Of a DNA stretch of 64,000 bases, positions 12,523 through 52,516 are shown in pieces; position 1 is the stretch's first letter; every line of letters starts with the position of its first letter. The notes beneath the pieces were generated by a model. The model was not told the origin of the DNA and ran no database searches. It saw nothing but the letters and a program-made list of their open reading frames with translations. The stretch comes from Halocatena salina (GTDB lineage: Archaea; Halobacteriota; Halobacteria; Halobacteriales; Haloarculaceae): NCBI RefSeq assembly GCF_023115355.1, contig NZ_CP096023.1, positions 1-64,000 on the forward strand. The letters are read 5' to 3'. The translations under genes and the position numbers were made by a program.

Positions 12523-13179
12523 CTAGACACTATCGAGAAGTTCGCCCATCGCTTCTGCATCGAGTTCAGCCTGTGATAACCATTGTTCTAGATCTGTGCG
12601 GTTGTAGAGCGTAACATTCGAATTTTCGGCGGCCTCTTTTGCGCCTTCAGTATACCGAGATGTTGTAACGACTGCAGGGATATCGATCGCAAATTCTGAT
12701 TGTCGAACGACCGATCCCGTATGAATCTCCTGCACAGCACTGTTTCCAACTGGATTATTGATGTTGTATGCCTTCGCTTGGATCCCAACAGTGGTGGCTT
12801 CACGAACCCACACAACGTCGACCCCTTGGTCCCCGGAACCTTCTGTAACTGTGGCATCACCCTCCACTCGGCGGAGAATCTCAGCAAGAATATGCTCAAA
12901 TTCATAGCCAGATACCAACTCGAGGTCGTTGAGATCCACGTATCGGGGGGCTCGCGACGTTTCGGAGAATGAAACGCTCTGATACTCAGCTAGTCGCTCG
13001 CGCTCACGTCGAAGTATTTTGAGAACCCTGTCCTGCGGGATCTCCCGCTCCCAGACCTGTTCAAGTAACTGCGACGCTTGGACATGTTCGGGAATATCAT
13101 GGCTTTCTGCTCTTTCAATAAACTCAGCGAGCGAATCAGCGTCTTCCGCCCATGTCTGAACGTCTGTGTGTCTACTCAT
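12523..13179 (-). CDS. Mrr-like restriction endonuclease (PD-(D/E)XK)
   Basis: The product has 218 residues. Residues about 88-200 form an Mrr-type catalytic domain: GYEFEHILAEILRR with the conserved Glu, then EGSGDQGVDVVW with D121 and VGIQAKAYN with Q134 and K136 as the active-site D...QxK. Residues 1-80 are helical and not recognised; they could bind DNA or a partner. Mrr enzymes cut modified or foreign DNA. The start overlaps the stop of the upstream Cys-rich gene by four bases (ATGA), so it is the last gene of the helicase / Cys-repeat / endonuclease operon and is probably translated by coupling. Confidence 0.88.
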   Translation of the reverse strand: MSRHTDVQTWAEDADSLAEFIERAESHDIPEHVQASQLLEQVWEREIPQDRVLKILRRERERLAEYQSVSFSETSRAPRYVDLNDLELVSGYEFEHILAEILRRVEGDATVTEGSGDQGVDVVWVREATTVGIQAKAYNINNPVGNSAVQEIHTGSVVRQSEFAIDIPAVVTTSRYTEGAKEAAENSNVTLYNRTDLEQWLSQAELDAEAMGELLDSV

Positions 13180-15206
13180 TTGTACGTCCCCATGAGCTGT
13201 TTCAGCATCCCCGCACTATATCGATCAACTTCTTGTTCTGCTTGCACATCATATATGACGACCTTGTTACGTCCCAGCAATTTCTTGCCAAGGATTACCA
13301 TATACGCATCATTACTACCGGCCTCCACGGAGCGGAAGTCCGATGCGATTTCAGTCGGTATCTGGGTTTGGGCAACGTCACCGAGTGATCGGCATGCTGT
13401 GCATTGACCGTCGTTCAACACGGGTGTACTGTATATAATCTCGCAGGTGTCACACGTGTCATGGTGATTCTGACACAGATGTCCAGTGCCAAGTGGTCTG
13501 GAGACACGGTGGTTGGAGCACACGGTCTCTTCGCCGACCGAACACTGGGTTGCATGAGTCTGACAGAACGTTTTCTCCTCACTGTCTTGTCCCTCAGCAC
13601 ATGTCACGCAGACCTCGGTATGTTCTTCACAGAGCGTCTCGCCACACATGGTGCAGATAGTACTGTGGTCGGAACAAATCAGGTCATCACAGGCTGAACA
13701 CCGCTCAATATCTGTTTCACATCGAGGTGATTCACAAACGCTACATCGCCGTGTATGCGCATCACAGTGGTGATCATCACAGTCTGAGCAGTGCGTGAGA
13801 TGAGAATCACAATGGAACGTACCGCCTGTAGCGCACTCTTCACCACAGAGATGACAGGTTATTGATTCACAACTATCGCAGAACTCGCTGTGATCAGCGC
13901 AGACTGCTGTTCCACATGAGGCACACGTCTGTAGACACTCCTGACACACATCCTCCCAACAGACCACACACGGTGTACAGTGTTCAGTTCCATCACAGTC
14001 TTCACAGTACGTCAACCCACAGCTCCGGCAACTTGTAGCACACGGATCGCCGATCAAGTGTCCATTTGTACACAGCTTTGGAAGAACCCCTTCAGTTAGA
14101 TCTTGCGAACAGACGCTACAATCCAAGCCTCGGAAGGCATCTGTAGCTGGGAGGTAGGAGAGTTCAACGGTCGCAGCAGTATGGTTGGAGCTGAGTTCCA
14201 ATGTCAGGATTCCCCGAACGTACGCTACCTCTGTCACACCTATGAGTGATACATCAACATCAATCTCGTTCCTATCGATAACCTCATCAATTTCTGTCCT
14301 CTCTTCGGCATTCAGTTCTTCTTTCTTTTCTTCTATCTTTCTCTGCAGTTGGGTCAATTCCTGCTCTGCCTCTCTTCGGTTTGTGATGTATTTGCGGCGG
14401 GTGCTGTCCTTACGGGCTTTACGACGCTTGTTCTCCCATTTGTGGATCTCTTGGCGCTGTTCCGTTAGTTGCTGATCGAGTTCGCTTCGACGCTGATCAT
14501 ACCAATCTGTAATTTCCTGAATCCGTTCACTGGCGCTATCATCTGCTTCCTCTTTCAACTCAGAGATAATTGGGCGAGACCGATCGATCACAGTTTGCTG
14601 GGCTTCTTCGAAGGCCTGTTGTACCTGTGTGTCCGAAACGTTGCGGGGTGGATGCTCGTTATTTTGTTGAAGAAGCTGTGGGAGATGAGATACAAGCCGT
14701 TTCGTTAATTCTGGCAGTCTCGCCTGTGTTACTGGATCAACAGTTACGGAAAACATCTCCTCATTGTGGAACGACGAGGGGGTTTCGAATTGTACCCAAA
14801 AATGAAATGCCAGAGCAACGTCGGATGTGCGTTCGCTGAAGTCAGTAATCTCCACCGTCAGATCTGACTCCTGAAGCACGGTGGGCGGATTTACTTGGAG
14901 AGTGTCCTCTGTTAATCGAAGTCGACCGATACTCCCCGGTTGCTGTACAAGATTTAGTAGGGTAGAGAATACTGTTGTTCCCGGCTGGACAAGAAGGTCA
15001 CCAGATCCCAGTTCACGATCAGCAGCATCAAATACCAACGTTCCGTGGTCACGATCAAGTTGTCGCGAGAGTTCGCCTGGGAAAGTGACCTCCCACTTAG
15101 CACTATTTGACCGATCGATCTCGGCTCCGTATTCCTCCAGGACAGATTTGGTGAAGCGCTTGATGTTAACGCTGTTTAGAATGGAGGTGTCAACTTCAGA
15201 TTCCAT
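13176..15206 (-). CDS. Coiled-coil protein with tandem 15-residue Cys/His zinc repeats
   Basis: A 676-residue protein not recognised as any named family. Residues 1-185 look like a beta-rich domain; 195-310 form a long charged coiled coil (for example SELDQQLTEQRQEIHKWENK); 315-360 are beta-like. Residues 363-605 hold 44 cysteines in tandem repeats of the form C-x2-C-x4-C-x2-H-x4, period 15, such as CSACDDLICSDHSTI and CTMCGETLCEEHTEV. The end (about 612-676) is again beta-like. The repeats recall B-box or treble-clef zinc fingers and would make a zinc-laced rod. The gene lies 57 bases after the helicase gene and overlaps the endonuclease gene, so it is the central part of a three-gene system. 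Role unknown; an adaptor or sensor joining helicase and nuclease is my guess. Confidence 0.9.
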   Translation of the reverse strand: MESEVDTSILNSVNIKRFTKSVLEEYGAEIDRSNSAKWEVTFPGELSRQLDRDHGTLVFDAADRELGSGDLLVQPGTTVFSTLLNLVQQPGSIGRLRLTEDTLQVNPPTVLQESDLTVEITDFSERTSDVALAFHFWVQFETPSSFHNEEMFSVTVDPVTQARLPELTKRLVSHLPQLLQQNNEHPPRNVSDTQVQQAFEEAQQTVIDRSRPIISELKEEADDSASERIQEITDWYDQRRSELDQQLTEQRQEIHKWENKRRKARKDSTRRKYITNRREAEQELTQLQRKIEEKKEELNAEERTEIDEVIDRNEIDVDVSLIGVTEVAYVRGILTLELSSNHTAATVELSYLPATDAFRGLDCSVCSQDLTEGVLPKLCTNGHLIGDPCATSCRSCGLTYCEDCDGTEHCTPCVVCWEDVCQECLQTCASCGTAVCADHSEFCDSCESITCHLCGEECATGGTFHCDSHLTHCSDCDDHHCDAHTRRCSVCESPRCETDIERCSACDDLICSDHSTICTMCGETLCEEHTEVCVTCAEGQDSEEKTFCQTHATQCSVGEETVCSNHRVSRPLGTGHLCQNHHDTCDTCEIIYSTPVLNDGQCTACRSLGDVAQTQIPTEIASDFRSVEAGSNDAYMVILGKKLLGRNKVVIYDVQAEQEVDRYSAGMLKQLMGTYK

Positions 15207-15263: not shown

Positions 15264-17051
15264 TCATGCTTGGCCTTCTCCAGTCTCGAAGCCCTCAAAG
15301 ACTTCCTCATTGAACCGCTGTGCTTTCTTTGCAGATCTCATATCTCCTTCCAGATCAACAGACATCTCCTCAAAATTGTTCTCTAATTCCCGTTCAGAAT
15401 CCGCCTCTATCATCTGTTGGAGCACCTCCTGTTCGAACTGGCCGGTCGACTGCTCTCGCTCCGAAAGAATTTCCTTCAGTCCACCGACGGTCTGATGGAA
15501 GACATCGATCTTCCCATACAACTTCTCAAGGACATAGTCTTCAATCGTTCCTTCCAGCGCTAGATTGTATACGTAAACGTCGCGGTCTTGACCGATCCTG
15601 TCGATTCGACCGATGCGCTGTTCGACGCTCATCGGATTCCACGGGAGGTCATAGTTCACGATTACATTACAAAACTGGATGTTTCTTCCCTCACTAATTG
15701 AGTCGGTGGTGACGAGGACCCCGCCCCGCTCTCTGAAATGCTGGATTTGTTGGTCTTTGTCCGCGCTCGAAAGCGATCCGCTGACCGTATGAATCGGGAT
15801 CTCGTCTTGTCGATCGTCGGCCCGTAGTGCGTCCACGATCGCATCTTGGGTGGCGTGGAATTGCGTGAAGACGATCGCCCGGCCAGTCTCCATCCGTTCA
15901 TTGACGCCTTCAATGATATTCAGGAGCTTTTCCTGCTTTGTCGTTCGGCCGATTGCTCTCGCCTGTTTTGCGACTTTGAGAAGTTCTTCACGCTCTTGCC
16001 CAACAACATCACGCCCGTCACCGTTGAGCCATTTCTCGACGGTACTGAGGACAGCCCACGGTGAACTCACCACTTCTTTTTGGAGCATTAACATGACGAG
16101 GTGTCGTCCATCCTGCATCGAATAATGGCTCTTAACGTACTCTGTGACGGCTTCGTACAGCTTTTGCTCTTGAGTATTTGGCTCGAATGTTTTTGTCCTA
16201 ACCTGTCGGTCAGTGAAGTCGATCGCGGTGTCTCCACGTTTGTGACGGATCATTACTGACCGAAGTTGCCGATTCAGCTCATCAGCGTTTAGTACTCCAC
16301 TATCATCGTGATCAGGGACATAGCGCCGTTCAAATTCAGATTCCGTTCCAAAGAGCCCTGGACGGATAAGATTGATAATATTGTATAGATCCGTGACGTC
16401 GTTTTGAACAGGTGTGGCTGTCGCAAAGAAGGCGTATTGATAGTCGATATCTGCGACGAAGTCGTATCGATTAGTCCCGCTGTTCCGTAGATAATGGGCT
16501 TCGTCGACAATTAGGGCGTCCCAGTCACGTGCGTAGATTTCCTCGGCATATCGATCTCGTTTGGCCGTATCAATACTGGCAATGATTTTGTCGTAGGCAT
16601 CGAAGCCAGCAAAGGTATCATCATAATTGCAGGCAAAGTCCAGACCGAACTTGTCGGCCATCTCCTTCTGCCATTGGGTAGCTAGCTGTGCCGGAGTCAG
16701 GATTAAGAACGTATCATGGGCATCCCGAAAGACCATCTCTTTGAGGACCATTCCCACTTCGATCGTCTTTCCAAGTCCGACCTCATCAGCAAACAACGCT
16801 TTTCCGTCCATCTGAAAGAGCGCCCGATGCGCCGCATCCAACTGATGCTCTAATAGTTGGATCGTATCCGTTATCTCTTCGATGGATTGGAGTTCTTGTT
16901 GGCTTTGGGCGATCGACAGCCGGTTTGCTTCGATATTGAGGAGATGTTGGGATAGATCCGACCCTTCCCTGGTTGTAATTTCATCAAGCAGAGGCGGGGA
17001 ATCTTCCAACTCGAAATGAACATCAACAAGTGATTCATCCTCTGTCGACAT
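15264..17051 (-). CDS. SNF2/RapA-type superfamily 2 helicase
   Basis: The product has 595 residues and both helicase lobes. Motif I is DEVGLGKTIE at 89-98, motif II DEAH at 183-186, motif III ATATP near 210, motif V TTDSISEGRNIQ and motif VI QRIGRIDRIGQ. The DEVGLGKT and RIGRIDRIGQ forms are those of SNF2/RapA-type ATPases that move along double-stranded DNA. Residues 1-60 are acidic and precede motif Q. The C-terminus (about 535-595) is helical and charged. It is the first gene of a three-gene operon with a Cys-repeat protein and an Mrr-like nuclease, which suggests that it moves or loads the nuclease. DISARM and BREX also use helicases of this type but with different partners. Confidence 0.9.
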   Translation of the reverse strand: MSTEDESLVDVHFELEDSPPLLDEITTREGSDLSQHLLNIEANRLSIAQSQQELQSIEEITDTIQLLEHQLDAAHRALFQMDGKALFADEVGLGKTIEVGMVLKEMVFRDAHDTFLILTPAQLATQWQKEMADKFGLDFACNYDDTFAGFDAYDKIIASIDTAKRDRYAEEIYARDWDALIVDEAHYLRNSGTNRYDFVADIDYQYAFFATATPVQNDVTDLYNIINLIRPGLFGTESEFERRYVPDHDDSGVLNADELNRQLRSVMIRHKRGDTAIDFTDRQVRTKTFEPNTQEQKLYEAVTEYVKSHYSMQDGRHLVMLMLQKEVVSSPWAVLSTVEKWLNGDGRDVVGQEREELLKVAKQARAIGRTTKQEKLLNIIEGVNERMETGRAIVFTQFHATQDAIVDALRADDRQDEIPIHTVSGSLSSADKDQQIQHFRERGGVLVTTDSISEGRNIQFCNVIVNYDLPWNPMSVEQRIGRIDRIGQDRDVYVYNLALEGTIEDYVLEKLYGKIDVFHQTVGGLKEILSEREQSTGQFEQEVLQQMIEADSERELENNFEEMSVDLEGDMRSAKKAQRFNEEVFEGFETGEGQA

Positions 17052-25783: not shown

Positions 25784-27055
25784 TCAACAGAGCTGTCGAA
25801 TCCGGTGGTTGAGGCAACGCTCCAGACGGGTCCCTAGCGCCTCAGCGGTTGCGGCTGGTTTCCGAGTCGGCAATTCGACGACAGCTAGTTCTCCTGCGTT
25901 CTGAACGGCATAGTTAGTTGTAAGGGATCCTTCTTGACTGGGATATATAAGCAATCCGGATACATCATCCGTGAGTTGATACGCGACCATCTGATAGATG
26001 TCTGCGTTGTCGACTGACTCCGGTGTCTTCCACTTTGCGTCTGCAACAAACTGAACGGTCTCATACTGGTCACGAACGAGGATGTCTGGCCGCATCGTAA
26101 TCGATGGCGATCCACCAGTGACGAGTCCCCGTCTCGTTGCCTGTGGTTCGATGGACCAATCGGTACGTGACTCCAATGCTCCGCGAACTGCCCGTTCTAC
26201 AACGTCTTCGAAGACACGATTCATGTCTATTAATAGTGAATATGAGTCCCGGTTGCCGCGCTCTAATCGATCGACGTGAGCGTTATCGAGAAGTAGCTCA
26301 GTGAGTCGCAAGATAGCTGTATAGTGCTCACTGAGGCGAGTGAGTTCGATGTCGCGTACCTCTTGGACACGAACCGATCGAAGCGTCACACGACGGCGAA
26401 TGCGCGTCTGATATCGCTGTAGTGACTGGCCGAGGTCTTCGTCGCTGACGAGCCCCAAGAGAACGGATACCGTATACAGAATTGCCTGATTTGCTGGCGT
26501 TTCATACGTGAGTTCATCATACGAACATTCAAACGTCGTTGCACAGGGACCCTGTCGCTGTAGCTGCTGTTGCAGATCGAGACGCCCGCGGAGATAGTCC
26601 TCGGTATTGCTGGAGCGTCGATACGCTTGTTGGAGGCCACGCTTGATGAGCTGCTCCAGCTCGGCGAGGTAGAGTGCAGCGAGGATGTCGATGAATGTGG
26701 CTCCGGTTTGGATCGATGTTTCCTGTTTGATCGTCGTTGCTTCGGTTCCGTGCGCATACTGAAGGAGTGACAGCAGATTGTCTCCTGCTGCTTTGGGACG
26801 GATCTGAATCGTCGGCCCATCTGGCAGTGAGACAATGCCAACGTACTGTGAGGTACGAAGCATCGGTTGCCTCTCGTGGTCAAAGCTCACTGTCATTTGT
26901 TGCGATGACAGTGTCTGTTCGATGAATTCCCGGTCTCGCTCTGACAATTGAGTATCCAACTGTGTTTCGTCGTGTTCTGTGAGCGTGATGGTCGGGACTG
27001 GTGCGGACGGCGACTGGGAACGACCTACTGTCTGTTCGTGCAATGCCATACTCAC
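25784..27055 (-). CDS. mcrC: McrC-family nuclease subunit
   Basis: A 423-residue protein with the two-part build of McrC: an N-terminal beta-rich region (TSQYVGIVSLPDGPTIQIRP) that contacts the McrB ring, and a C-terminal PD-(D/E)XK nuclease with ITMRPDILVRD and VQFVADAKWK supplying the active D...DxK. McrBC cuts DNA between modified cytosines. The gene overlaps the mcrB stop by four bases (ATGA). A protein-like segment follows its stop in the same frame. Confidence 0.93.
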   Translation of the reverse strand: MSMALHEQTVGRSQSPSAPVPTITLTEHDETQLDTQLSERDREFIEQTLSSQQMTVSFDHERQPMLRTSQYVGIVSLPDGPTIQIRPKAAGDNLLSLLQYAHGTEATTIKQETSIQTGATFIDILAALYLAELEQLIKRGLQQAYRRSSNTEDYLRGRLDLQQQLQRQGPCATTFECSYDELTYETPANQAILYTVSVLLGLVSDEDLGQSLQRYQTRIRRRVTLRSVRVQEVRDIELTRLSEHYTAILRLTELLLDNAHVDRLERGNRDSYSLLIDMNRVFEDVVERAVRGALESRTDWSIEPQATRRGLVTGGSPSITMRPDILVRDQYETVQFVADAKWKTPESVDNADIYQMVAYQLTDDVSGLLIYPSQEGSLTTNYAVQNAGELAVVELPTRKPAATAEALGTRLERCLNHRIRQLC

Positions 27056-29178
27056 TCCGTAGATACGGACCGATCAGTGCCAGCAACACCGTTGTCGCGG
27101 AGTTGGTAGAGGTTTCGGTCATTGAATTGCGGATGGCACCAGTGGTCTGGTTGTCCGACAGTGGTCTCGTCTCCGTTCGTTAGTTCATCGAAAATCTGTT
27201 GTGCCGCCCCCGATAGCGAATATAAGTCGCCATCATTTAGCCATCGAATGTCGCCCGACTCAGCGGTGGCATCGATTACCTCACTCTGCCAAAACGCAGC
27301 ATCACGCTCAGCCACTGCTCGCTCTATGTCTGTATCTGAGACCGTTGTCCCGTTCCGCAGCTGTTCACGGTTAAATTCGAGGATATCTCCTGCTTCGAGG
27401 ACACCATTTTCAGACAGGATATCTACTGTCTGTCGTGATGTCGTCTCTGGTTCAATATTGAGGAGTGATGCGAGAGCTGTGTGAAGATCATCTGCGGTGA
27501 AGTCTTTGATCTGCTTGGTACGCCAATCGACGAGGCGATCATCAGTCCCTGCGAGGAGATCCTGTTCGATACGCTCGAATTGTCCGAAGTAATATTCCTC
27601 TAGGAGGGGGAGGATTTCGTACTTCCAGGTATCGACAAGCGCATCTTCGTCGATCTGTCCATCATCCCGTGTGCACCCAAAGAGATACGAATGCCCGATC
27701 TGCTTTCCCTTGCCAAGGTCCGGCAGGCTCCGAATCCGCTCGTTGAGTTCCTCAAGAGCAAGGAGTGAGAGGGCGAGCAGCGCACGCAGAGACGCACCTG
27801 ACTCAGCTGTGGCGTGCACATCGCGTTTGTGATCAAAGTTGTACTCTTCATAGAGTGCGTCGTAGTCCGGTGGGAAATTGATGAATCGGAACCGGCGACG
27901 AAGAGCTGCGTCAACGAGTGCGATAGAGCGATCTGCAGTATTCATCGTGCCGATGACGAAGAGATTCGGCGGCACGACGAACGACTCTCCCGAATGAGCA
28001 AGCTGTACCTGAACTTCGTTTGCTTCATCACGACGTTTATCGGCTTCTAGTTGTGTAATGGTTTCACCGAAGATTTGCGCCAGATTGCCTCGATTAATCT
28101 CATCGATAATCAGCACGAATCGCGGCGGGGTCTCTTTTTTGGAGACCATCTCGTAGGCTTCTTGTGCAGCTTCACAGACACGCTTGAACCGCCCTGGGCT
28201 GATGTCGTAGTTGACGGTGCCGCTGTCAGTGGCCTCAGCGGACAGTCCTTCGACGAAATCTTCATAGGAGAATGAAGGATGGAATGTGACGATATGGACC
28301 TGTGACATTGATGTTGTGACTGGAGGACCTTCACTCACCCACCACTCAGCGAATTGGTTCGCTGAATACGTTTTTCCGGTTCCTGGTGGGCCATAGAACA
28401 CGACCTGCTTTGTCGTTTCAAGCTGTCGTGCGATGTCGTCTGCTCGTTCAGGCTTTTCACTGGACTCCTCTGAGCCCCGTGTAAGGTCCCCAGTCTCAGC
28501 GTATCGAATCACACACTCAGGTACATCATCACGGGCAAATCCGAGAAGTGGAAAGAGTACATCGGCAAACGTTTCGGCTATAATATCGATAAATGACGTG
28601 TTAAAGATTCCATCGGCTTCGCGATAGCGTCGTTTTGCGGCAAACCGCGTGATACCGTTGGCAGCCAACCGGTCTATATCATCTCCAGTAAACTCGTCTA
28701 CTGGCATCGAGTAGCTGTTTCCATATTTCGGCTGATAACTGACGGTAGCATCGTCGAACTGTGAAAGAATCGTGAGAAAGGTCTCTGATTGTTCACCAAT
28801 ATTCGTTTTTAGCGTCTCACGTTGGTCAGCTACCGGGGTCGCATCACCCGCCGTGCCTGCATTGAAACGCACATCAACAAAGGGTCCGTCATCGTCTTCC
28901 CCAATAAGGAATTCTGGATGAACGAGTTCGTGTGGGCCTCGATCATCACCTGCTCGACCGTACATCGTCCACATGTACTCGCGATAGTCTTTTTCCGTGT
29001 GTTGTGGCCGGATGCGTGATGCTGTTGGGTCACTACTGATGTTTTGGAACTGTTTTGGTGCCCGATTATATACGTCTTCGCCGATTTGCTGTAGATGACG
29101 CCGTATCGACTGTAAATTCGATTTTGTCGTTCCGAGCTGCTCGAAATCATCACGTGTAAAATGTGTTGTGTCTGCCAT
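27052..29178 (-). CDS. mcrB: McrB-family GTPase/AAA+ restriction subunit
   Basis: A 708-residue protein. The C-terminal AAA+ motor has Walker A GPPGTGKTYSA, Walker B FVLIIDEINRGN and the family mark IGTMNTADRS, all diagnostic of McrB. The N-terminal 280 residues should read modified DNA. They are not like the DUF3578 domain of E. coli McrB that I know, so the modification recognised may differ. The frame opens at 29337, but MADTTHFTRDDFEQL at 29178 is the likely start. The hexamer moves DNA to McrC for cutting. The frame of mcrC begins inside its stop. Confidence 0.93.
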   Translation of the reverse strand: MADTTHFTRDDFEQLGTTKSNLQSIRRHLQQIGEDVYNRAPKQFQNISSDPTASRIRPQHTEKDYREYMWTMYGRAGDDRGPHELVHPEFLIGEDDDGPFVDVRFNAGTAGDATPVADQRETLKTNIGEQSETFLTILSQFDDATVSYQPKYGNSYSMPVDEFTGDDIDRLAANGITRFAAKRRYREADGIFNTSFIDIIAETFADVLFPLLGFARDDVPECVIRYAETGDLTRGSEESSEKPERADDIARQLETTKQVVFYGPPGTGKTYSANQFAEWWVSEGPPVTTSMSQVHIVTFHPSFSYEDFVEGLSAEATDSGTVNYDISPGRFKRVCEAAQEAYEMVSKKETPPRFVLIIDEINRGNLAQIFGETITQLEADKRRDEANEVQVQLAHSGESFVVPPNLFVIGTMNTADRSIALVDAALRRRFRFINFPPDYDALYEEYNFDHKRDVHATAESGASLRALLALSLLALEELNERIRSLPDLGKGKQIGHSYLFGCTRDDGQIDEDALVDTWKYEILPLLEEYYFGQFERIEQDLLAGTDDRLVDWRTKQIKDFTADDLHTALASLLNIEPETTSRQTVDILSENGVLEAGDILEFNREQLRNGTTVSDTDIERAVAERDAAFWQSEVIDATAESGDIRWLNDGDLYSLSGAAQQIFDELTNGDETTVGQPDHWCHPQFNDRNLYQLRDNGVAGTDRSVSTE

Positions 29179-29789
29179 ACATCTGAGTTCGGCCATTTCT
29201 ATTAGAATGTTTGGGTATCTGAGCCCGTTGTGATCTATTCTCTCCTCCCGATAGGCATCGTTATTTTTGTAGTGGGGAAATTCCATCCCTGTGTAAAGTT
29301 TCCATCTATCAGACGGTGAGTAGCGTCGCCAGATCACATCCGGTCAGTTCCGAGAGTATGGTTTTGTATATTGGCTCATACTTTGTAGGCGTTGGATGCA
29401 GAGTGTTCGACTTTACCGTTTCACCCCGTTAGCTATGCATTTGCGCATAGGTATGGTCTAGCTCAACTGTTTGTAGAGAGAACAGGTCGCCTACAGAAAG
29501 GTATGATATCATGTCGAGCAATCGTGTGCTCACGTAATACACTACTAAAGATCTATCACAATTCAAGCACAGCATTAATATGAGCCATCGGGTTCTGTTC
29601 TTGGCAGCAGTCGATCTATCAGCTGGACTTTCGCTATCATCCTGATCTCCTCTAACCAATAATATATTACTTAATATATAAATATAGTGTATAGAGTGTG
29701 TCTTGTACTTCCGACCACAGTGTTCCAGATAGTCTGATAAGAGGACTCACTGTCTGCAATATAAGAAATAATCGATTTCAACGACCACG
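29179..29789. other. Gap upstream of mcrB and downstream of addA
   Basis: No gene is supported. The stretch 29640-29790 is AT-rich and lies after the addA stop; the part nearest 29179 should contain the mcrB promoter. A 63-codon frame at 29392 is not protein-like. Confidence 0.45.
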
Positions 29790-32700
29790 TTAGGTGCGTT
29801 CGTCCACTATTGTACGGAGTTCGGCCTTAATCTCGTCCAGTTCTTCTGGGTTCCACTCGAAGCGTTCTTCGACGCCGATATCGGTAAACCGGAGTGACGC
29901 GCGAACACATCGATCGGAATCGTGCTGAAGGAGCGCAAGGGCATACGAGAGCATCTGCGGCCGATAGTGCTCTGCTAGCTCCTCGGTCATCGTTGTCGAG
30001 AGGTCATTGGTCTTGTAATCGATGATGTGGTACCCATCGGGTGTAACGAGCAGGCGATCGATATCCCCGACGATTCGCGTGCCATCGATGCGTGCCACCA
30101 CAGAGTACTCGTCGTGAGTGGCTTCGAGGGCGACCGACGACTCGACATCGTCAACAAACGCAATCGCGTCTTCTGCGTGGGTGACCGCCTCACGGAGAGC
30201 ATCCGGTGTCGGCTCCTCTCCTGCTATCTGACTCACTCGATGGATGAACGTCTCCCAGTCGTCTCTCGGTGGTTGAAGCTCGGTAAGACGATGAACCACG
30301 GTGCCGAACGTGGTCGGGCTGAGTCCGACTGATTCCGTTCTATCTGCAGAGCTGTGCTCGCCACCGGAGTGGTCTGTAACGTTATTTACAAGGGTCGTCG
30401 CTGCCACTCGTCTTCCGACATCGCGTTCAGATGGGGATGGAATCGATATCTCGGGCATCACGGCATCGGTTTCCGTAGCAGAGCGCCAGTTTATCGGCCG
30501 TGGCGGTGTGCGAACGGTGTATTCAGCATTACCGAGGTGGCCAGACGCGGGTCCGTTCCGGACCGCCTCGGTAAGGAGTTCGGTATCGTCAAGAAGGACG
30601 GGCTGGAGCCAGTCTCGCCAACGATTGGCTTCATCGAACGGCTCGGTCTCGCCAAGGTCAAGCGCTCCAGACGCGTCCACGTCGATCTCGTGTGTGCCAC
30701 ACAGGAGCAGATGATCGCGTACTCTCGTGCATGCAACGTAGAGCAGACGCTTTGCTTCCGCGCGTTCCTGTAGACGTGCGAGCCGATCGGCGTACGCATG
30801 GACCGCCGTCTCCTCTATCGAGAACGCGTCGTGTGGATCGGGGCCACCAACAGCAGGAAGCGGTGGCGCGTCATCAGTCCCCTCCACGAGCTGAACGTAG
30901 CCATAATCGTCGACGCTGCGCCCAAAGTTCAAACTGCTTCCAAGGTCAGGAATCATGACAATGGGGAATTCCAATCCTTTCGAGGCGTGGATCGTCATGA
31001 TGCGGACGCCCTCGGCGTCCCCTGGGATGTCTGCGTCTCCCTCACGTGATTCGATGTTGGCTTGCCGGTCGATCCGATGTAGGAGTCCAGCAGCCGTGTG
31101 AACTCCACTCTCGCTCCACGTCCGTACCTGGTCGCGGAACTTCTCGACGTTCGCGACGGCCTGCTGGCCCCGTTCGTCCGCACTGACGCTCGCCAGAAAG
31201 CCCGTCTCGTCGATGACACGTGTGAGGACACGATCCCACGAGAGCATGCCTTCCTCGTCAGGGGACGTACACCCACTGCGCGTTCGCCACGTCGTTAGCA
31301 GCTCGAACGCGTCAGTGAGGTGTGGATCGTCGGACTGTTCGAGTGCGTGCCAGATGGAGTCCGCGTCGGCAACTGCCGGCGCGAGCCGGTCGTCGGTGAA
31401 CCCAAACAGCGGGGAACGAAGCACACCGTACAACGAGACGTCGTCCGTTGGGTCACCAAGTACACGAAGGAGATTCGTCAACGCTTGGATTTCGGGAGTC
31501 TCATAGAATCCGACACCCCCGATGACTGTGTACGGAATATCGTGCGCCGCAAGTGCGCGCTGGTATCGATGGAGGTGTGTTCTCCGGCGGAGCAAGATCG
31601 CTACATCATCCGGCGTTGCCGCACGATGGTCACCAGTCTCTGGGTCTTGGATCGTCGGTGGCTCGTTGAAGAGATGGGTCAATCGGGCAGCAAGCCCCTG
31701 CGCTTCCGCCTCGGTCGTATGCTCTACTGCCCCCTCTGCAACGGGATGATCGTCGCCGAACAGCGTGGTTGCTGTCTCGGCGTCGTTCGGAACGACGAGG
31801 TATTCGACACTTCCCTCTAACCCCTCGACGTCTTCGACCTGATTCCGTCGTGCAGTGAGCGATTGAGGTCTCGCTTCGAACGGCCTATGTTTGTCGCCCT
31901 CCGGGTGGAACAACTGCTCGAAGAGTTCGTTCAGAAACACAAGCGGTTCTTCAAGCGTTCGGAAGTTCCCGGAGAGTTCGAGTGACGTTGGTCGCTTTGC
32001 CTCGCTGTCTGGCACGTGGTCGATGTCGAAGGTCGCGTTGACGGAGTGCAGTTCGGCCCGTGCAGTGGCGAAGGTCGTGACATCGGCTCCACGGAAGGCG
32101 TAGATGCTCTGTTTCTCGTCGCCGACGAGAAATACGTTCGTTGCTGTTCCTTCCATTCCCCCCGTGAGGAGCTTCACGAGTTCCCATTGCCGGTCGTCAG
32201 TATCTTGGAACTCATCGACCATGACGGCCGCAAACTGGTCCTGGAGACGGGTGCGAACCTCATCGTTGCGACGGAGAAAGGAGATCGTCGTCTCGATCAC
32301 GTCTGGGAAATCGAGGGCGTCTCGCCGGTCTTTCTCGGCGTCGTACTGCTCTCGGACTTCATCGAAGACACGCATCAGTGCCAACGCGTAGTGTGCACTG
32401 TTTTCTTCGAGCTCTCCGGGCGTCGTATCGACAGCCTCCTCGTGTGGTCCGATCGCGTCGATGACCACATCGATGGCATCCTTCAGATCATCGTAGACGT
32501 CGCCGTCTTCGTTCCAGTCGTCCCGGTCACCGATGACGTAGCCAGCACTGCTGTAGAGTCCACCGCTTTTCTTCTCACACACTGTATAGAGTTCGAGAAT
32601 TGCCCGTTGACACGTTCGGGGAGTACTTGCTTCAGGATCGTCGGGGAGCAGGTCAGCAATGGTTTCGAACGTTTGGTAGGCCTGCAGCCCATCGTCATCT

Positions 32701-33431
32701 TGGATCTCGGCTTCGACCGTCACTCGTCCCGCCAAGTCCCGCAAGTGGGTCAGTACACCGGTCGTGTAGAGCGTTTCGCGAGCCTCGTCGGCATCCACAT
32801 CGCAGACGACCTTCCATAGAAGGTCGACATACTCATCGACATCAGCGTCTCGCCAGCGGTCGAGGACCGCTTCACTCTGTGGACGCGCATCAAGCAACCC
32901 GGTCAAGATGGTGAGAAGCTGCGGTCGCCCCCAGAGGTGGGCGAGGAGCGCCACGTCTTCGTCGCTCTGGTGTCGTTCGAGGAACTCGGTAACGACCGCA
33001 CGCTGGAGTGAGGCTGCACCATCCTCGTCGAGCACGTCGAATCCGAGCGAGACCGGGGCTTCGATCGCCCGCTCTCGCAACAGGCGGGTACAGAAGGCAT
33101 GTATCGTGTGGACGTATCCATCCTCAAGGTCGTCGAGTACTGCTCGCCACCGCTGATACGCCGCTTGCGAGTCCACGGCTGCAAGTCGGTCGTAGATCTC
33201 CGCTCGGACACGCTCGGTCAACTCTGCAGCGGCCTTTCGTGTGAAGGTGATCGTGACGATGTTCTCGGGTGTGAGTGTCGGGTTCTCTTCCAGCACCGTC
33301 ACGTACCGTTCGGTCAGCGTCGTCGTTTTGCCGGTGCCGGCACCGGCGGTGATGGCGACGTTTCGGTCCTGCACGAGCGCGTCTTCCTGTTCGGTGGTCA
33401 GTTGGATCGCGTTATCGTCGTTATCAGTCAT
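29790..33431 (-). CDS. addA: AddA-like UvrD-family helicase with RecB-type nuclease
   Basis: A 1213-residue helicase-nuclease. Helicase motifs are AGAGTGKTT at 29-37, VDEFQDTDDRQ, GDEKQSIYAFRGAD, TIHASKGLEFP and LLYVACTRVRDHLLL. The C-terminal PD-(D/E)XK nuclease has RIVGDIDRLL and YHIIDYKTND. In bacteria AddA pairs with AddB to degrade and process broken ends until a Chi site; few archaea have the pair. It overlaps the end of the addB-like gene by eight bases, so both are made together. The duplex-end processing role is from the family. A defence role is suggested by its place between mcrBC and BREX. Confidence 0.92.
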   Translation of the reverse strand: MTDNDDNAIQLTTEQEDALVQDRNVAITAGAGTGKTTTLTERYVTVLEENPTLTPENIVTITFTRKAAAELTERVRAEIYDRLAAVDSQAAYQRWRAVLDDLEDGYVHTIHAFCTRLLRERAIEAPVSLGFDVLDEDGAASLQRAVVTEFLERHQSDEDVALLAHLWGRPQLLTILTGLLDARPQSEAVLDRWRDADVDEYVDLLWKVVCDVDADEARETLYTTGVLTHLRDLAGRVTVEAEIQDDDGLQAYQTFETIADLLPDDPEASTPRTCQRAILELYTVCEKKSGGLYSSAGYVIGDRDDWNEDGDVYDDLKDAIDVVIDAIGPHEEAVDTTPGELEENSAHYALALMRVFDEVREQYDAEKDRRDALDFPDVIETTISFLRRNDEVRTRLQDQFAAVMVDEFQDTDDRQWELVKLLTGGMEGTATNVFLVGDEKQSIYAFRGADVTTFATARAELHSVNATFDIDHVPDSEAKRPTSLELSGNFRTLEEPLVFLNELFEQLFHPEGDKHRPFEARPQSLTARRNQVEDVEGLEGSVEYLVVPNDAETATTLFGDDHPVAEGAVEHTTEAEAQGLAARLTHLFNEPPTIQDPETGDHRAATPDDVAILLRRRTHLHRYQRALAAHDIPYTVIGGVGFYETPEIQALTNLLRVLGDPTDDVSLYGVLRSPLFGFTDDRLAPAVADADSIWHALEQSDDPHLTDAFELLTTWRTRSGCTSPDEEGMLSWDRVLTRVIDETGFLASVSADERGQQAVANVEKFRDQVRTWSESGVHTAAGLLHRIDRQANIESREGDADIPGDAEGVRIMTIHASKGLEFPIVMIPDLGSSLNFGRSVDDYGYVQLVEGTDDAPPLPAVGGPDPHDAFSIEETAVHAYADRLARLQERAEAKRLLYVACTRVRDHLLLCGTHEIDVDASGALDLGETEPFDEANRWRDWLQPVLLDDTELLTEAVRNGPASGHLGNAEYTVRTPPRPINWRSATETDAVMPEISIPSPSERDVGRRVAATTLVNNVTDHSGGEHSSADRTESVGLSPTTFGTVVHRLTELQPPRDDWETFIHRVSQIAGEEPTPDALREAVTHAEDAIAFVDDVESSVALEATHDEYSVVARIDGTRIVGDIDRLLVTPDGYHIIDYKTNDLSTTMTEELAEHYRPQMLSYALALLQHDSDRCVRASLRFTDIGVEERFEWNPEELDEIKAELRTIVDERT

Positions 33432-36400
33432 CGCTCATCACCGCCGTGAGATCCGCCTCATCTTGCACACGCAACGGGACGTACGACGCATCGTCCGCTT
33501 GTGCCTGTTCGACTCGCTGTCGCTTTTGATGGTGTCGGACATCGCAGGCGCGTCGATACTCACAGTAGTTACAGTTCGCACTGCGAGCCGACAACAGCGA
33601 CGTATGGAACCGTCCGTTCGCGATTGCATCGTCGATATTCCCGAGCCACTCCGGCACAACGTTGTTCAGAAACCGTCGCAATGCTGCCTGTGACTCGAAC
33701 TTCGATTCCACCCCTCGCCGGACCGTGACGTCGTTGGGTGGATGGACCTGGTAGTACGTCGCAGAAAGCGCTGCGTCGGCAGTCAGGTTTTCATCCACAA
33801 CTGTGTCTGCAGCGAGGAGATAGATCGGGAGCTGGAACTTCGTTCCACCCGTCGTTTTGGTCATATACGGAGTCCGCCCGGTCTTGTAATCGTAGAGCGC
33901 CAGCTCCGCGTGCTCCCCATTCCCGTTCACGTCGATGCGATCGATGTACCCACGGATGGAGACCGTCGATCCATCAGAACGCTCAACATCGAACCGTCCG
34001 CTTTCCGAATCAGGGAGGCCCGCACCGAACGGCGCTTCGAACCACTGTCGCTTGGCAGGGTCCCGTGAGCGTTCCTCCGTGAGGAACGTCGCGAACAGCC
34101 CCTCCGCAGGCGCAGTGTGTGGCCGGTCACTGTTGGAATAGGGGTTCGTCTCTGGCTTGCCCAGTCCCGCGAATAATTCTGTCAGCCATCGCTCGTAGAA
34201 CAGCCCCTCATACTCGAAATCAGCCTGCTCCAGTTCATCGAGGGCAACGTCGAGGAGGTGCTGTTCTAGGTCGGCTTTGTCATACGCCATGAACTCAATG
34301 TCGTCGTCGGACTCTCCCAGCAGATCCACATAGAAGCGTTCGAGGACATCATGCACGTAGCTGCCAGCCTCAAGCGGTGTCGGCCTTACCTCGATCTCGT
34401 CGTGATCTTCGATTCCGATGACGTTCTCGGCGTAGAATTTGAACCCACATTCGACGTACCGTTCGATCCGACTGGCGCTGTATGGCGCTCGATCAGTGGG
34501 TGGATACACCGTATCGACGGTGTCTGCATCGAGGATGCCATCGTGTGGGGTGAGCTCCGCAGTGCTTCGATTAGCGGCGCACACGAGACCACGGTCGGTT
34601 CGCTTCGTTTGTTCGGGCGAGAGATCGCCCTGTTTGCCAGCGTGGTCAACAGCCGCTCGCCGGTCAGGGTGAGCGGCGAGGTGTCGCTGGAGGTCCTCAC
34701 GCGAGCCGACGCGATCATCGACACCGGTTTCTGGTTCGATTCCCGTTACCCGCTGGAGTTCATCGAGCACCGGCGATCGAACGACTGCTGCTTCACCGTC
34801 GCCAGTGTCGGGAGTCGTGAGGGTTACCTCCTCACTGTTCGCCAGCAGTGTTGCGAAGAGATACCGTCCCCGACGGCGTCCATCACCCGTGTCGAATCGA
34901 GGATGGGCATCGGTCATCGCGTCGAAGAAGGCCGGGCGCTCCGGCGAGGCCGGGAAATGCTCGGTCGTGAGTCCGACGACGAAGACGTGCTCGAACGATC
35001 GCATTCGGGCGTCGAGCATCCCCATGACCTCGACGTGGCCTCCTGTGATGCTTTGTGGGACGCGAACGGATACGCTGTCGAACGCACGGGCGAGTAATGC
35101 CAGCGGAGGGTAGTCATTCGATATTGCTTGCAACTCTTCGAACGAACTGAGGATGTCATCGACGACAGAATATGCCTGCTGCTCACGTGCCTGTGGTGTG
35201 CTACCGGCGTAGTTCTTGACGGCGGTGTCTAGTTCGATGTCCTCGGCTAGCACCCGCCGAAGGACGTCGAGCGCCGTTCCAATGTCCCCTGTTCGGAGTG
35301 GCTTGAGTGACGCCACTAGCTCCTTCACGAAGGCCGTAGCATCACCGTCAATGGTTTCTAGCAGTGGGGCAAGGGCGACTGTGTCGCGGCGTCGAGCTGC
35401 TCTCGTGATCGCATCGACCTGTTCTTGTGGGAAGATATCAACGAGGGAGTTCGCCAATAACGATGTCAGATTTTCAGCGTAAGGGTCTGCTTCGGCCAGC
35501 TTGAGTAGATCATGGACAACACTCCCAACAAAGGTCTCATCCAACTGGGTTGCTGCGGTCGTGACGTGTGGGATCTCATAGATGTCGAAGATGTCTTCAA
35601 CGTATCCAGCATACGATTCGGTCCCTGGGATCACGACTGCTAGATCGTCTGGATTTCGACCGGCTGCGAGTTCCATCCGAAGTTCGCGAGCAACGAATCG
35701 GATCTCCCGTTCTGGCGTCGGTAGCTCCCGCCAATAGAGCGTGCTGGGGTGGGATACTGTTTCTAGATCGTGACGATACAGGGCGTTCGTGACGGCTGCG
35801 ATTGCCCTAGCTGTTTCCTGCTGGGGTTCGATCACTTCCCGGTTGAATCCCAACGTCTCATACACCGCGAGGCCGTCGTGGGTGACCGCGTCTACGCCAC
35901 CGTCACCGTGTTGGTGAAGCGGGAGGATCGCAATTGTATCGAACGCGTCGACGATTCGAGCGAGCACGGCCCGTTCGACAGGTCGAAACTCGTGATAGCC
36001 CGAGATGATGACGGTATCGAGATCGGGTGAAAGTTCGGAGAGAGACACCTCAGTCGTCGCGACGGTCTGAAAGAGCTCACCGCGGGTAGCGGTCCACTCG
36101 TCGCCAGCGGTTTGATGCAGCTCTCGGTAACACTGGTAGATGTCGACGGTCGCTGTTGCGATGCGTTCGTCAAGTATAGACTCATCGAACGCAGTCGCCA
36201 ACGCATCAGGGGTGGTTACGCCGGCATCATCGAACAGTGAGAAGCGATGACTGAACGCATCTACAAGTGACCCAGAGGCTGGCTCGCCGGCAAATATACT
36301 TTCGTCACCCGCCGTCGCACGATCAAGGGCGTACTCCGTAAGGCGACGGTTTACCTGGCTGGACAGCCTTGCAACTGGGCCTTCGAGTGCTTCGTACCAC

Positions 36401-36609
36401 TCACGGACGACGGCGTCAAGCGTCTCAGCGCGGAGCCGCAGTGGGCGATGCGCCTCTGCCCACGCATCTTCGACGTGCGATCGACGAGCGTCGTTTCGCG
36501 TGATATAGAGGATACTTCCTAGCGAATCATCGGCGAGGGCATCGGCTTGCTGGAATGCTTGTTGTTCCAGCCGTGCATGTTGTGGACCAGTTAGCAGCGT
36601 GGCATTCAT
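33424..36609 (-). CDS. addB: AddB-like nuclease with probable iron-sulphur staple
   Basis: A 1061-residue partner of the AddA-like protein. The N-terminal helicase half has lost its P-loop (LLTGPQHARLEQQ in its place), so it should not hydrolyse ATP. The C-terminal half holds a PD-(D/E)XK nuclease (ELALYDYKTGR) framed by cysteines: one in YVECGFKF near 721 and three in CNYCEYRRAC near 1012. This is the pattern that binds a 4Fe-4S cluster in AddB. The first ATG at 36609 is a good start. The gene diverges from brxA, the spacing being 144 bases. Confidence 0.88.
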   Translation of the reverse strand: MNATLLTGPQHARLEQQAFQQADALADDSLGSILYITRNDARRSHVEDAWAEAHRPLRLRAETLDAVVREWYEALEGPVARLSSQVNRRLTEYALDRATAGDESIFAGEPASGSLVDAFSHRFSLFDDAGVTTPDALATAFDESILDERIATATVDIYQCYRELHQTAGDEWTATRGELFQTVATTEVSLSELSPDLDTVIISGYHEFRPVERAVLARIVDAFDTIAILPLHQHGDGGVDAVTHDGLAVYETLGFNREVIEPQQETARAIAAVTNALYRHDLETVSHPSTLYWRELPTPEREIRFVARELRMELAAGRNPDDLAVVIPGTESYAGYVEDIFDIYEIPHVTTAATQLDETFVGSVVHDLLKLAEADPYAENLTSLLANSLVDIFPQEQVDAITRAARRRDTVALAPLLETIDGDATAFVKELVASLKPLRTGDIGTALDVLRRVLAEDIELDTAVKNYAGSTPQAREQQAYSVVDDILSSFEELQAISNDYPPLALLARAFDSVSVRVPQSITGGHVEVMGMLDARMRSFEHVFVVGLTTEHFPASPERPAFFDAMTDAHPRFDTGDGRRRGRYLFATLLANSEEVTLTTPDTGDGEAAVVRSPVLDELQRVTGIEPETGVDDRVGSREDLQRHLAAHPDRRAAVDHAGKQGDLSPEQTKRTDRGLVCAANRSTAELTPHDGILDADTVDTVYPPTDRAPYSASRIERYVECGFKFYAENVIGIEDHDEIEVRPTPLEAGSYVHDVLERFYVDLLGESDDDIEFMAYDKADLEQHLLDVALDELEQADFEYEGLFYERWLTELFAGLGKPETNPYSNSDRPHTAPAEGLFATFLTEERSRDPAKRQWFEAPFGAGLPDSESGRFDVERSDGSTVSIRGYIDRIDVNGNGEHAELALYDYKTGRTPYMTKTTGGTKFQLPIYLLAADTVVDENLTADAALSATYYQVHPPNDVTVRRGVESKFESQAALRRFLNNVVPEWLGNIDDAIANGRFHTSLLSARSANCNYCEYRRACDVRHHQKRQRVEQAQADDASYVPLRVQDEADLTAVMSDD

Positions 36610-50836: not shown

Positions 50837-52516
50837 CTATGCGTTCGCCTGTTCTACACAAGAATCGAGGAACCCTTCAATCTCCTCGATCGATTTTCCG
50901 TTCTCATACATCCACTCGATTATCTGCTTTCCGTGTTCTATCTTCTTGTAACAGCCTGAATTCTCGACCCCGGGAGGCATATTCTGCTCCGCCACCATCT
51001 GGTTAACCTTCCCCTCAACGTCACAGAATTCAGTAATGTCGTCTCTAGAAACAGAAATGGATAACACTTCGCCGATCCCGTCAGGATAGAAGTAGTTCTC
51101 TATCTCTCTGTGTTCCAGAACATGACAGTCAATCCCAGCGCTTTCAGCATGCTCTCTCAATTGCGCCACTTTTGGCTTAAGTTCATCTTCTCTGTCTTTC
51201 CTGTCACTATCCAACAGGAACGCGAAGTGGCGGTTTATCTTCTTTAATTTTCTTGGCTTACAATGACTGATATTACCTGTTCCACCGAGATGTTGGATGG
51301 TGATGTTATGTTCTTGCCAGTTATCGTAATACGAATCGGCAATTGTTTCGAGGATCTTTACGTCGGATGGGCCCTCTACGTAGATTACGAAGTCACTCTG
51401 GAGGATGTCGCTGTTCCGTGCCCCGATCTCATCGACTGCTTTGAAGGCATCCTCCTCAATACGCTCGAAGGTCGTGATACCGGAATCACGACGGGTGATG
51501 TACATCTCTGCGGCCGTTCGGTTATCGATAAACACCTGTGAGTGCGTGGTTATTACTACCTGGCCACCGCTATCAGCGATACTTCGCAATGCGTCCAGCA
51601 TCTTCCGTTCGGCTGCTGGATGGAGAAAGTTACCTGGCTCCTCGAAAAGCAGCATATACCCCTCACCTACTTGAAGGTCGACATAGGCTTGCATCATTGA
51701 TAGAAGAAGGAGACTTCCCACACCTGACCCACGCTCATGGACGTCTATACTCTCGGAGAGATGCTTGTCCTCGAGATGAATTTTCGGAGAGATTGCCTTG
51801 CTGATTTGGATACTTCCCGGCCTCATATTCACCTTTTCAACGTCGGCTAGATGTGCCTGCATGTACTCGGTCAACCGCTCCCCAATACCTTCTGAAGTCT
51901 CTTCGAGTGAATGTTTAAGCTCCTCGATTTGTTGATCAATTTCGTCGTGGAGTCCACCGCCTTTTAGAACTGGCATGAGGAGCTTGTTCAGAAAAGTACC
52001 ACCCTTCAGCTTTGTCTCCTCGTTCACATCACGTTCAGCGAAAATCGGGAGTGGCTCTGGGAAATACTCCCAGATGAAGTTCCGTGATTTCGCTTTGTAG
52101 AGTTCTTCTCCATCAACGACGACTGCTCCCTTAGCCATTTTTTCGCCATTGACGTAGGTTTCGGCTTTAGGCGTCGTTCCATCCCGTCGCGTGAACTCCT
52201 TTTCAATTGTAAATGTCTCATTCACATCGGGGAGGTAATCTTCGGTCAGTACATCTTCAAGGTCTGTGGGGACTTCTGCAAGTTTCGCAATGAATGAAAT
52301 TGACTCAGCTTCGCACTTGTGGAAGTGTTCGTTCTCGGGTTTACCACCATCCAGGAAGATAGAAAGTGCCTCAAGGAAAGATGATTTGCCAGCATCGTTT
52401 TTCCCGATGAAAGTCGTTATATCACCGATGTTGATTGGGCCTGAATCCTGAATTGGTTTGTAATTTTTGACCTCGAATGTGTCAATCGTGATCATTGCCA
52501 TTTGGAATTTCGACAT
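50837..52516 (-). CDS. OLD-family ATPase with TOPRIM nuclease domain
   Basis: A 559-residue protein. The ABC/SMC-type ATPase has Walker A GKNDAGKSS at 38-46, a signature-like region (GSGVGSLLLLSMMQAY), Walker B LLFEEPGNFLHP and switch ITTHSQVF. The C-terminal TOPRIM domain has FVIYVEGPSDVKILE and FAFLLDSDRKD. This is the OLD layout, also used by GajA of Gabija and by retron and PARIS effectors. It is read antisense to BREX, tail-to-tail with pglX and divergent from pglZ, so it looks like a guest. No UvrD-type GajB partner is beside it. MITIDTFEVKNYKP at 52495 is another possible start. Confidence 0.88.
   Translation of the reverse strand: MSKFQMAMITIDTFEVKNYKPIQDSGPINIGDITTFIGKNDAGKSSFLEALSIFLDGGKPENEHFHKCEAESISFIAKLAEVPTDLEDVLTEDYLPDVNETFTIEKEFTRRDGTTPKAETYVNGEKMAKGAVVVDGEELYKAKSRNFIWEYFPEPLPIFAERDVNEETKLKGGTFLNKLLMPVLKGGGLHDEIDQQIEELKHSLEETSEGIGERLTEYMQAHLADVEKVNMRPGSIQISKAISPKIHLEDKHLSESIDVHERGSGVGSLLLLSMMQAYVDLQVGEGYMLLFEEPGNFLHPAAERKMLDALRSIADSGGQVVITTHSQVFIDNRTAAEMYITRRDSGITTFERIEEDAFKAVDEIGARNSDILQSDFVIYVEGPSDVKILETIADSYYDNWQEHNITIQHLGGTGNISHCKPRKLKKINRHFAFLLDSDRKDREDELKPKVAQLREHAESAGIDCHVLEHREIENYFYPDGIGEVLSISVSRDDITEFCDVEGKVNQMVAEQNMPPGVENSGCYKKIEHGKQIIEWMYENGKSIEEIEGFLDSCVEQANA

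Follow-up and report, generated by a model that had tools for sequence, protein, structure and literature searches.

A haloarchaeal helicase–nuclease operon encoding an apparently interlocked array of 15-residue Cys/His repeats

Operon and domain layout

We analyzed positions 1 to 64,000 of contig NZ_CP096023.1 from Halocatena salina (assembly GCF_023115355.1), a 64,000-nucleotide stretch hereafter called the window, and focused on a three-gene operon whose middle gene encodes a 676-residue protein with tandem Cys/His repeats (the array protein; Table 1). Upstream of this gene lies a Swi2/Snf2 (SNF2) helicase gene (Pfam SNF2-rel_dom, 4e-30; Helicase_C, 3e-22; PADLOC DrmD, 2e-74), whose product carries the DEVGLGKT and DEAH motifs; downstream lies an Mrr-type endonuclease gene (Pfam Mrr_cat, 6e-19; PADLOC ZorD C-terminus, 2e-19), whose product contains the Mrr_cat motif D-x(n)-QxK (GVDVVW...GIQAKAY). 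Comparison with an 88% identical homologue revealed purifying selection in all regions of the array gene (ratio of nonsynonymous to synonymous substitution rates, 0.13–0.21), which argues that the gene is maintained.

The N-terminal half of the array protein found no fitting family in Pfam, NCBIfam, PADLOC or PDB searches, and library matches to DndD, PbeC, LmuB and RNase Y were based on the coiled coil and judged non-specific. By profile–profile comparison against about 20 BrxHII proteins (hhalign), residues 10–303 aligned to BrxHII 699–955 (probability 97.7%, E 1.7e-12), and residues 10–178, without the coiled coil, aligned to BrxHII 699–845 (probability 96.3%, E 1.5e-9); the controls (helicase core, reversed) reached 0.1%. 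The long coiled coil noticed in a preliminary description of this sequence was confirmed, and aligns with that of the BrxHII/RapA-type C-terminal half. In BrxHII, the C-terminal half comprises an inactive restriction endonuclease (REase) domain and an alpha+beta domain with a coiled-coil insert, and Type-1 BR helicases carry an additional, active REase at the C-terminus (PMC12839542). Because of this homology, a BrxHII divided over two genes, helicase and array protein, seems to be present; the SNF2, array and Mrr proteins would match, in this order, one Type-1 BR helicase cut in three. The array and Mrr follow where such a helicase has its active REase, and the array lies between the alpha+beta domain and the nuclease.

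Table 1 Features of the operon, of the array protein and of the surrounding island (window positions).
Feature	Position	Strand	Basis or remark
SNF2 (Swi2/Snf2) helicase, 595 residues, operon gene 1, DrmD/BrxH/RapA-like motor	15264..17051	minus	Pfam, PADLOC, motifs
Array protein, 676 residues	13176..15206	minus	open reading frame
Inactive-REase-like and alpha+beta region, residues 10-178, BrxHII C-terminal half homologue	14673..15179	minus	hhalign
Coiled coil, residues ~175-312	14271..14684	minus	helical in low-confidence model; coiled-coil-only library matches; alignment to BrxHII coiled coil
Array start, residues 363-392	14031..14120	minus	family alignment
First unit, residues 393-412 (20 residues, 5-residue insert)	13971..14030	minus	sequence
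Eight uninterrupted 15-residue units, residues 413-532	13611..13970	minus	sequence
Degenerate units, residues 533-554 (7-residue insert), 555-569 and 570-584 (first pair degenerate in both)	13455..13610	minus	sequence
Closing CxxC-x13-CxxC, residues 585-605	13392..13454	minus	Cys invariant in 16/16 aligned
C-terminal domain, residues 606-676, conserved, neutral	13179..13391	minus	shared by medium and long forms, lacking in short ones
Mrr-type restriction endonuclease, 218 residues, overlaps array gene by 4 nucleotides	12523..13179	minus	Pfam, PADLOC
McrBC-like pair: McrBC-component protein and AAA_5 ATPase	25784-29337
UvrD/GajB-like helicase (1213 residues) adjoining 1061-residue PD-(D/E)XK protein	29790-36609
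BREX cluster: BrxA, two BrxC, PglX, PglZ, BrxHII	36754-58038		gene content type-5-like
OLD-family ATPase gene inside BREX cluster	50837-52516	opposite to BREX
TerB_N/TerB_C/TM2 protein, then BrxC/BrxD-type ATPase	58722-62527

The 15-residue unit

All 44 cysteines of the array protein lie within residues 363–605 (window 13392–14120), as the preliminary description had it, apart from a start coordinate (13389) that was one codon off. The unit is C1-x2-C4-x4-C9-x2-H12-x3 with a period of 15 (or C-x2-C-x4-C-x2-[HD]-x3), with C1 and C4 forming what we term the A pair, and C9 and H12 forming the B pair. Five exact units (at residues 428, 473, 488, 503 and 518) and the period agree with what had been described, but the trailing x4 given for them would make 16 residues; the x3 spacing is the correct one, and the array DNA pattern with x4 matched nothing in 392 genomes. 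We count about 13 units in total, 10–11 of them recognizable, so that "about ten" was a fair estimate, and the units flanking the uninterrupted run are indeed looser, with an insert, degenerate pairs and a RING-like start. Relative to 5000 shuffled versions of this 243-residue stretch, the Cys autocorrelation was 26 at lag 15 versus 7.4 expected (z 8.2; lag 30, z 8.7), and five full units stood against 0.34 expected (shuffle maximum 4). The unit reading CETD has lost its His, as noted before; relatives of 63% identity have it, which marks the replacement of His by Asp as lineage-specific. The repeat has no recognized database family, and in a profile search with the array all 26 matches listed at E <= 1e-12 (16 genomes) fell within the array-protein family.

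Site pairing and structural comparison

We investigated the pairing of ligands by covariation of losses among 597 units in 24 uninterrupted runs of 8 or more units. Loss of A in unit i went with loss of B in unit i+1 (phi 0.44; 0.46 after dereplication at 50% identity, p 1.3e-10), whereas the other A–B offsets from -4 to +4 were near zero or negative, including the within-unit value (-0.09 to -0.22); A–A and B–B covariation at a distance of one unit was 0.10 and 0.01. Within-run permutation over all runs gave 65 joint losses versus 30 expected, with a maximum of 41 in 2000. A signal at k=+3 was due to four-unit terminal runs and was gone once these were excluded. As only A_i and B_i+1 covary, the site would be C-x2-C-x19-C-x2-H, common to neighboring units, and consecutive sites would interleave. 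This implies FYVE-like cross-brace sites that interlock along the array. The start of the long-form arrays has the RING-like spacing C-x2-C-x12-C-x3-H-x2-C-x2-C (family alignment), in which two C-x2-C pairs stand 19 residues apart, the same spacing as the proposed site. The chain geometry of interlocked units is well supported by computation.

FYVE domains have the spacing C-x2-C-x4-C-x2-C. The array shares this spacing within its unit and, judged from the covariation, also the FYVE-type interleaved pairing (first pair with third, second with fourth). Interleaved, cross-braced half-sites mark RING, PHD and FYVE domains, which bind two zinc ions, a few of them three (PMC4999995), whereas the interlocking of the array apparently continues through about 12 to 50 units at a period of 15.

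An AlphaFold2 model of four units (60 residues) reached a mean predicted local distance difference test score (pLDDT) of 71.7 (46–72 among five models), with short strands recurring at unit positions 7–9 and 13–15 and not a compact domain lacking repeat symmetry. Its best structural matches in the PDB were the FYVE, RIM, Slp and rabphilin zinc fingers, followed by PHD (Z up to 5.4; root-mean-square deviation 2.3–2.7 over 47–48 of 60 residues for most of the best). By the reported alignment ends, model residues 13–60 aligned to Vps27 173–228; given the zinc ligands of Vps27, these ends would presumably put A2–B3 and A3–B4 on the two FYVE sites. A PDB sequence profile search returned piggyBac (E 0.004), eL37 (0.017), Vps27 FYVE (0.15) and TRAF3 RING (0.16), all of them cross-brace except eL37, a ribosomal protein. 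The array protein lacks the FYVE lipid-binding motif R(R/K)HHCR and has no Pfam FYVE match. Of the earlier alternatives, a B-box or treble-clef array, the treble clef agrees with the covariation and with the FYVE, Slp and RIM matches, whereas the B-box has another ligand order and gave no Pfam zf-B_box match (HMMER bias filters can mask Cys-rich matches); its absence from the structural match list proves nothing. The array does consist of repeats, but not of separate domains, since each metal site is apparently common to neighboring units.

Forms of the family and their neighborhoods

The N-terminal family is present in 75 of 391 Halobacteria genomes, in three forms. The short form (about 390–450 residues, 5–9 Cys) has no array and terminates in a single CxxC-x18-CxxC; the medium form (675–676 residues) has about 12 units and 44–45 Cys; the long form has 32–51 units in up to 1245 residues, the highest Cys count, 152, being that of a 931-residue member that starts with the array. 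Two members (L051, L057) combine about 12 units with longer N-termini. Two relatives (L034, L043) are 91% identical except for a single gap of exactly 120 residues in the array, and the large array gaps between relatives are mostly exact multiples of 15 (120, 60, 60, 15, 45); judged from these gaps, the array is one that lengthens or shortens by whole units. Halocatena pleomorpha carries a second, truncated array copy (L003:8045-8740, 91% identical) besides the intact one in L001.

In Haloferax lucentense pSVX82-3, the gene for the 1245-residue protein (L034:9974-13711) is absent from the gene table, which is known to be incomplete and has three hypothetical proteins on the opposite strand there; this may be one reason for the family being overlooked. 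Virus and phage collections contained no relative. Sixteen viral contigs matched the x3 pattern, and all but one were rejected as short-period or frame artefacts; the remaining IMG/VR contig encodes a 462-residue protein with a Cys/His array of period 15 (L089:12542-13930), E2/RWD-like in its N-terminal part by eye only, as well as a terminase-like protein.

An Mrr gene adjoins the array gene in 25 of 25 array loci, and is found downstream in none of the 20 short-form loci; at one short-form locus (L073) it lies on the opposite side of the helicase. The SNF2–array–Mrr order is kept in nearly all array loci, with helicase and array protein as two genes wherever the helicase gene is intact. Further genes common to long-form loci encode a DEAD/ResIII helicase of about 970 residues (in 14 loci) and two proteins without a Pfam family, of about 280 and 298 residues; these two (L035:7218-8066, 282 residues; L035:14301-15197, 298 residues) have a WPSxYRG motif in common. 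A DUF499/HmaC-like ATPase occurs in 14 of the 20 short-form loci, which resemble the DUF499-centered BR systems (PMC12839542). Array loci differ from BREX and BR systems in having neither BrxC nor the DUF499 ATPase, as far as examined (5–9 kb around each). Five short-form genes are adjoined by a convergent gene of a 233-residue family (e.g., L036:11131-11832, L063:8915-9616).

Outside Halobacteria, we found proteins of about 550 residues that combine a zinc ribbon, Mrr_cat (8e-13, 2e-16), a middle region and about six units of the same repeat (L150, L152, L154, L155, L157; L163-L170). We call their hosts methanogens, a reading from their proteins and their phylum, which is that of the Halobacteria. 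The same repeat is joined to an Mrr nuclease here too, but in a single protein, and no SNF2 gene was recognized within several kb. This fusion is independent of the haloarchaeal operon, and is a second link of the array to Mrr. The array had been described as unusual in archaea; we found the haloarchaeal array family in about 20 of 391 Halobacteria genomes, and the second, Mrr-fused family in methanogens.

Island context

The 172-kb contig carries Orc1/Cdc6 and ParA-type genes and is therefore plasmid-like. The window is a defense island (BREX, McrBC, OLD and a UvrD/PD-DExK pair, the last possibly AddAB-like or Gabija-like). The BREX genes form a cluster separate from the operon, with a BrxHII of their own. 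Location and relatives suggest that the operon has an antiviral role.

Proposed mechanism and alternatives

On balance, we favor a split DNA-translocating restriction complex in which a continuous, interlocked zinc rod tethers the nuclease to the motor. The SNF2 motor (gene 1) would act together with both the array protein (gene 2) and the Mrr nuclease (gene 3). In the array protein, the N-terminal half would have been the C-terminal half of a BrxHII/RapA-type helicase before it became detached. Each metal ion, which we infer to be zinc, would be held by the CxxC of one unit (i) together with the CxxH of the next (i+1), in sites that interlock as in FYVE or PHD domains yet are open-ended, and the array may have arisen by extension of the single zinc finger that terminates the array-less homologues. 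Such a rod would most likely be a stiff spacer keeping the nuclease, docked at the conserved C-terminal domain (residues 606–676), away from the motor, which fits the position of the array, its free length variation and its tie to Mrr. Of this picture, the operon, the homology, the phasing of the array, the covariation behind the site pairing and the co-occurrence of array and Mrr are shown by computation, and the metal, the rod shape, the tethering and the antiviral role are inferred. We advance more cautiously the wider proposal that the array may be an open-ended cross-brace, the first of its kind: a zinc-finger polymer of up to about 50 interlocked sites that forms a rod, was built from a single finger and serves as an adjustable motor–nuclease boom.

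Several points weigh against this reading. Some units lose A while the next unit keeps B. The four-unit model is moderate, and its seven input rows include two copies of the array itself in shifted register and one distant array; a Z of about 5 is weak, and FYVE heads a list obtained with that model; the full-length model (four rows) reached a pLDDT of only 33. Members with array and Mrr and members lacking the array belong to different clades, so that 25/25 versus 0/20 does not amount to 25 independent events. A precise ruler would not tolerate the four-fold variation in array length, and no experiment on any family member was found.

Among other explanations, an array that reads nucleic acid, with a unit or unit pair contacting DNA or RNA like tandem C2H2 fingers or the piggyBac finger, would suit partners that act on DNA, and the top PDB sequence match, the piggyBac cysteine-rich domain, is a DNA-binding cross-brace finger (PMC8086355). 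However, the array is acidic (net charge -0.12 to -0.17 per residue, 3–5% Lys/Arg), more so than its partner proteins, and no obvious code was seen at the variable unit positions; its low basic content argues against DNA binding, though all halophilic proteins are acidic, and we consider such a reader unlikely. Beads on a string, with every unit a zinc finger of its own or every two units a RING-like module of their own, are common for simple repeats, and a period of 15 suits one site per unit; the negative within-unit covariation, the low A–A and B–B values and the short, four-residue distance from A to B within a unit make this arrangement rather improbable. We give little credence to a metal store, or a switch responding to metals or redox state, that would sense oxidants or metals freed during infection and thereby gate the nuclease: as many as 152 Cys in a single protein, beside 0.5% Cys in the other large window proteins, would be in keeping with it, but the spacing is that of regular structural sites in strict unit order instead of a cluster, and no metal-homeostasis genes were noted nearby. 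A role as a platform for binding proteins, as a decoy or as a RING-like ligase of the ubiquitin type is hardly probable, despite the RING-like array start and the mostly protein-binding FYVE, RING and PHD folds, as no E1/E2-like genes were recognized at the window locus and unit number varies freely.

Among the closest known systems, BrxHII/RapA-type helicases of Type-3 BREX and BR systems have the same SNF2 core and the inactive REase plus alpha+beta half, but in a single polypeptide of about 970 residues, which in the operon is split into two genes and extended by the array. Zorya ZorD and the Type-1 BR helicase likewise join an SNF2 motor to an Mrr/REase nuclease, fused there but here three proteins with the array between motor half and nuclease, and no ZorA/B was seen with the operon. 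The array family was undescribed in the literature we found, a comparison outside which lies the most relevant earlier survey (Burroughs 2011), and no open-ended zinc-finger chain was found in the databases or literature searched.

To our knowledge, cross-brace fingers have been regarded as closed domains with two zinc ions. In the array, this geometry seems to continue endlessly, as a natural zinc rod that changes length in whole units. SNF2–nuclease defense systems would gain an apparently unrecognized three-gene form, and in two unrelated settings among archaea a repeat without a database family is tied to Mrr nucleases.
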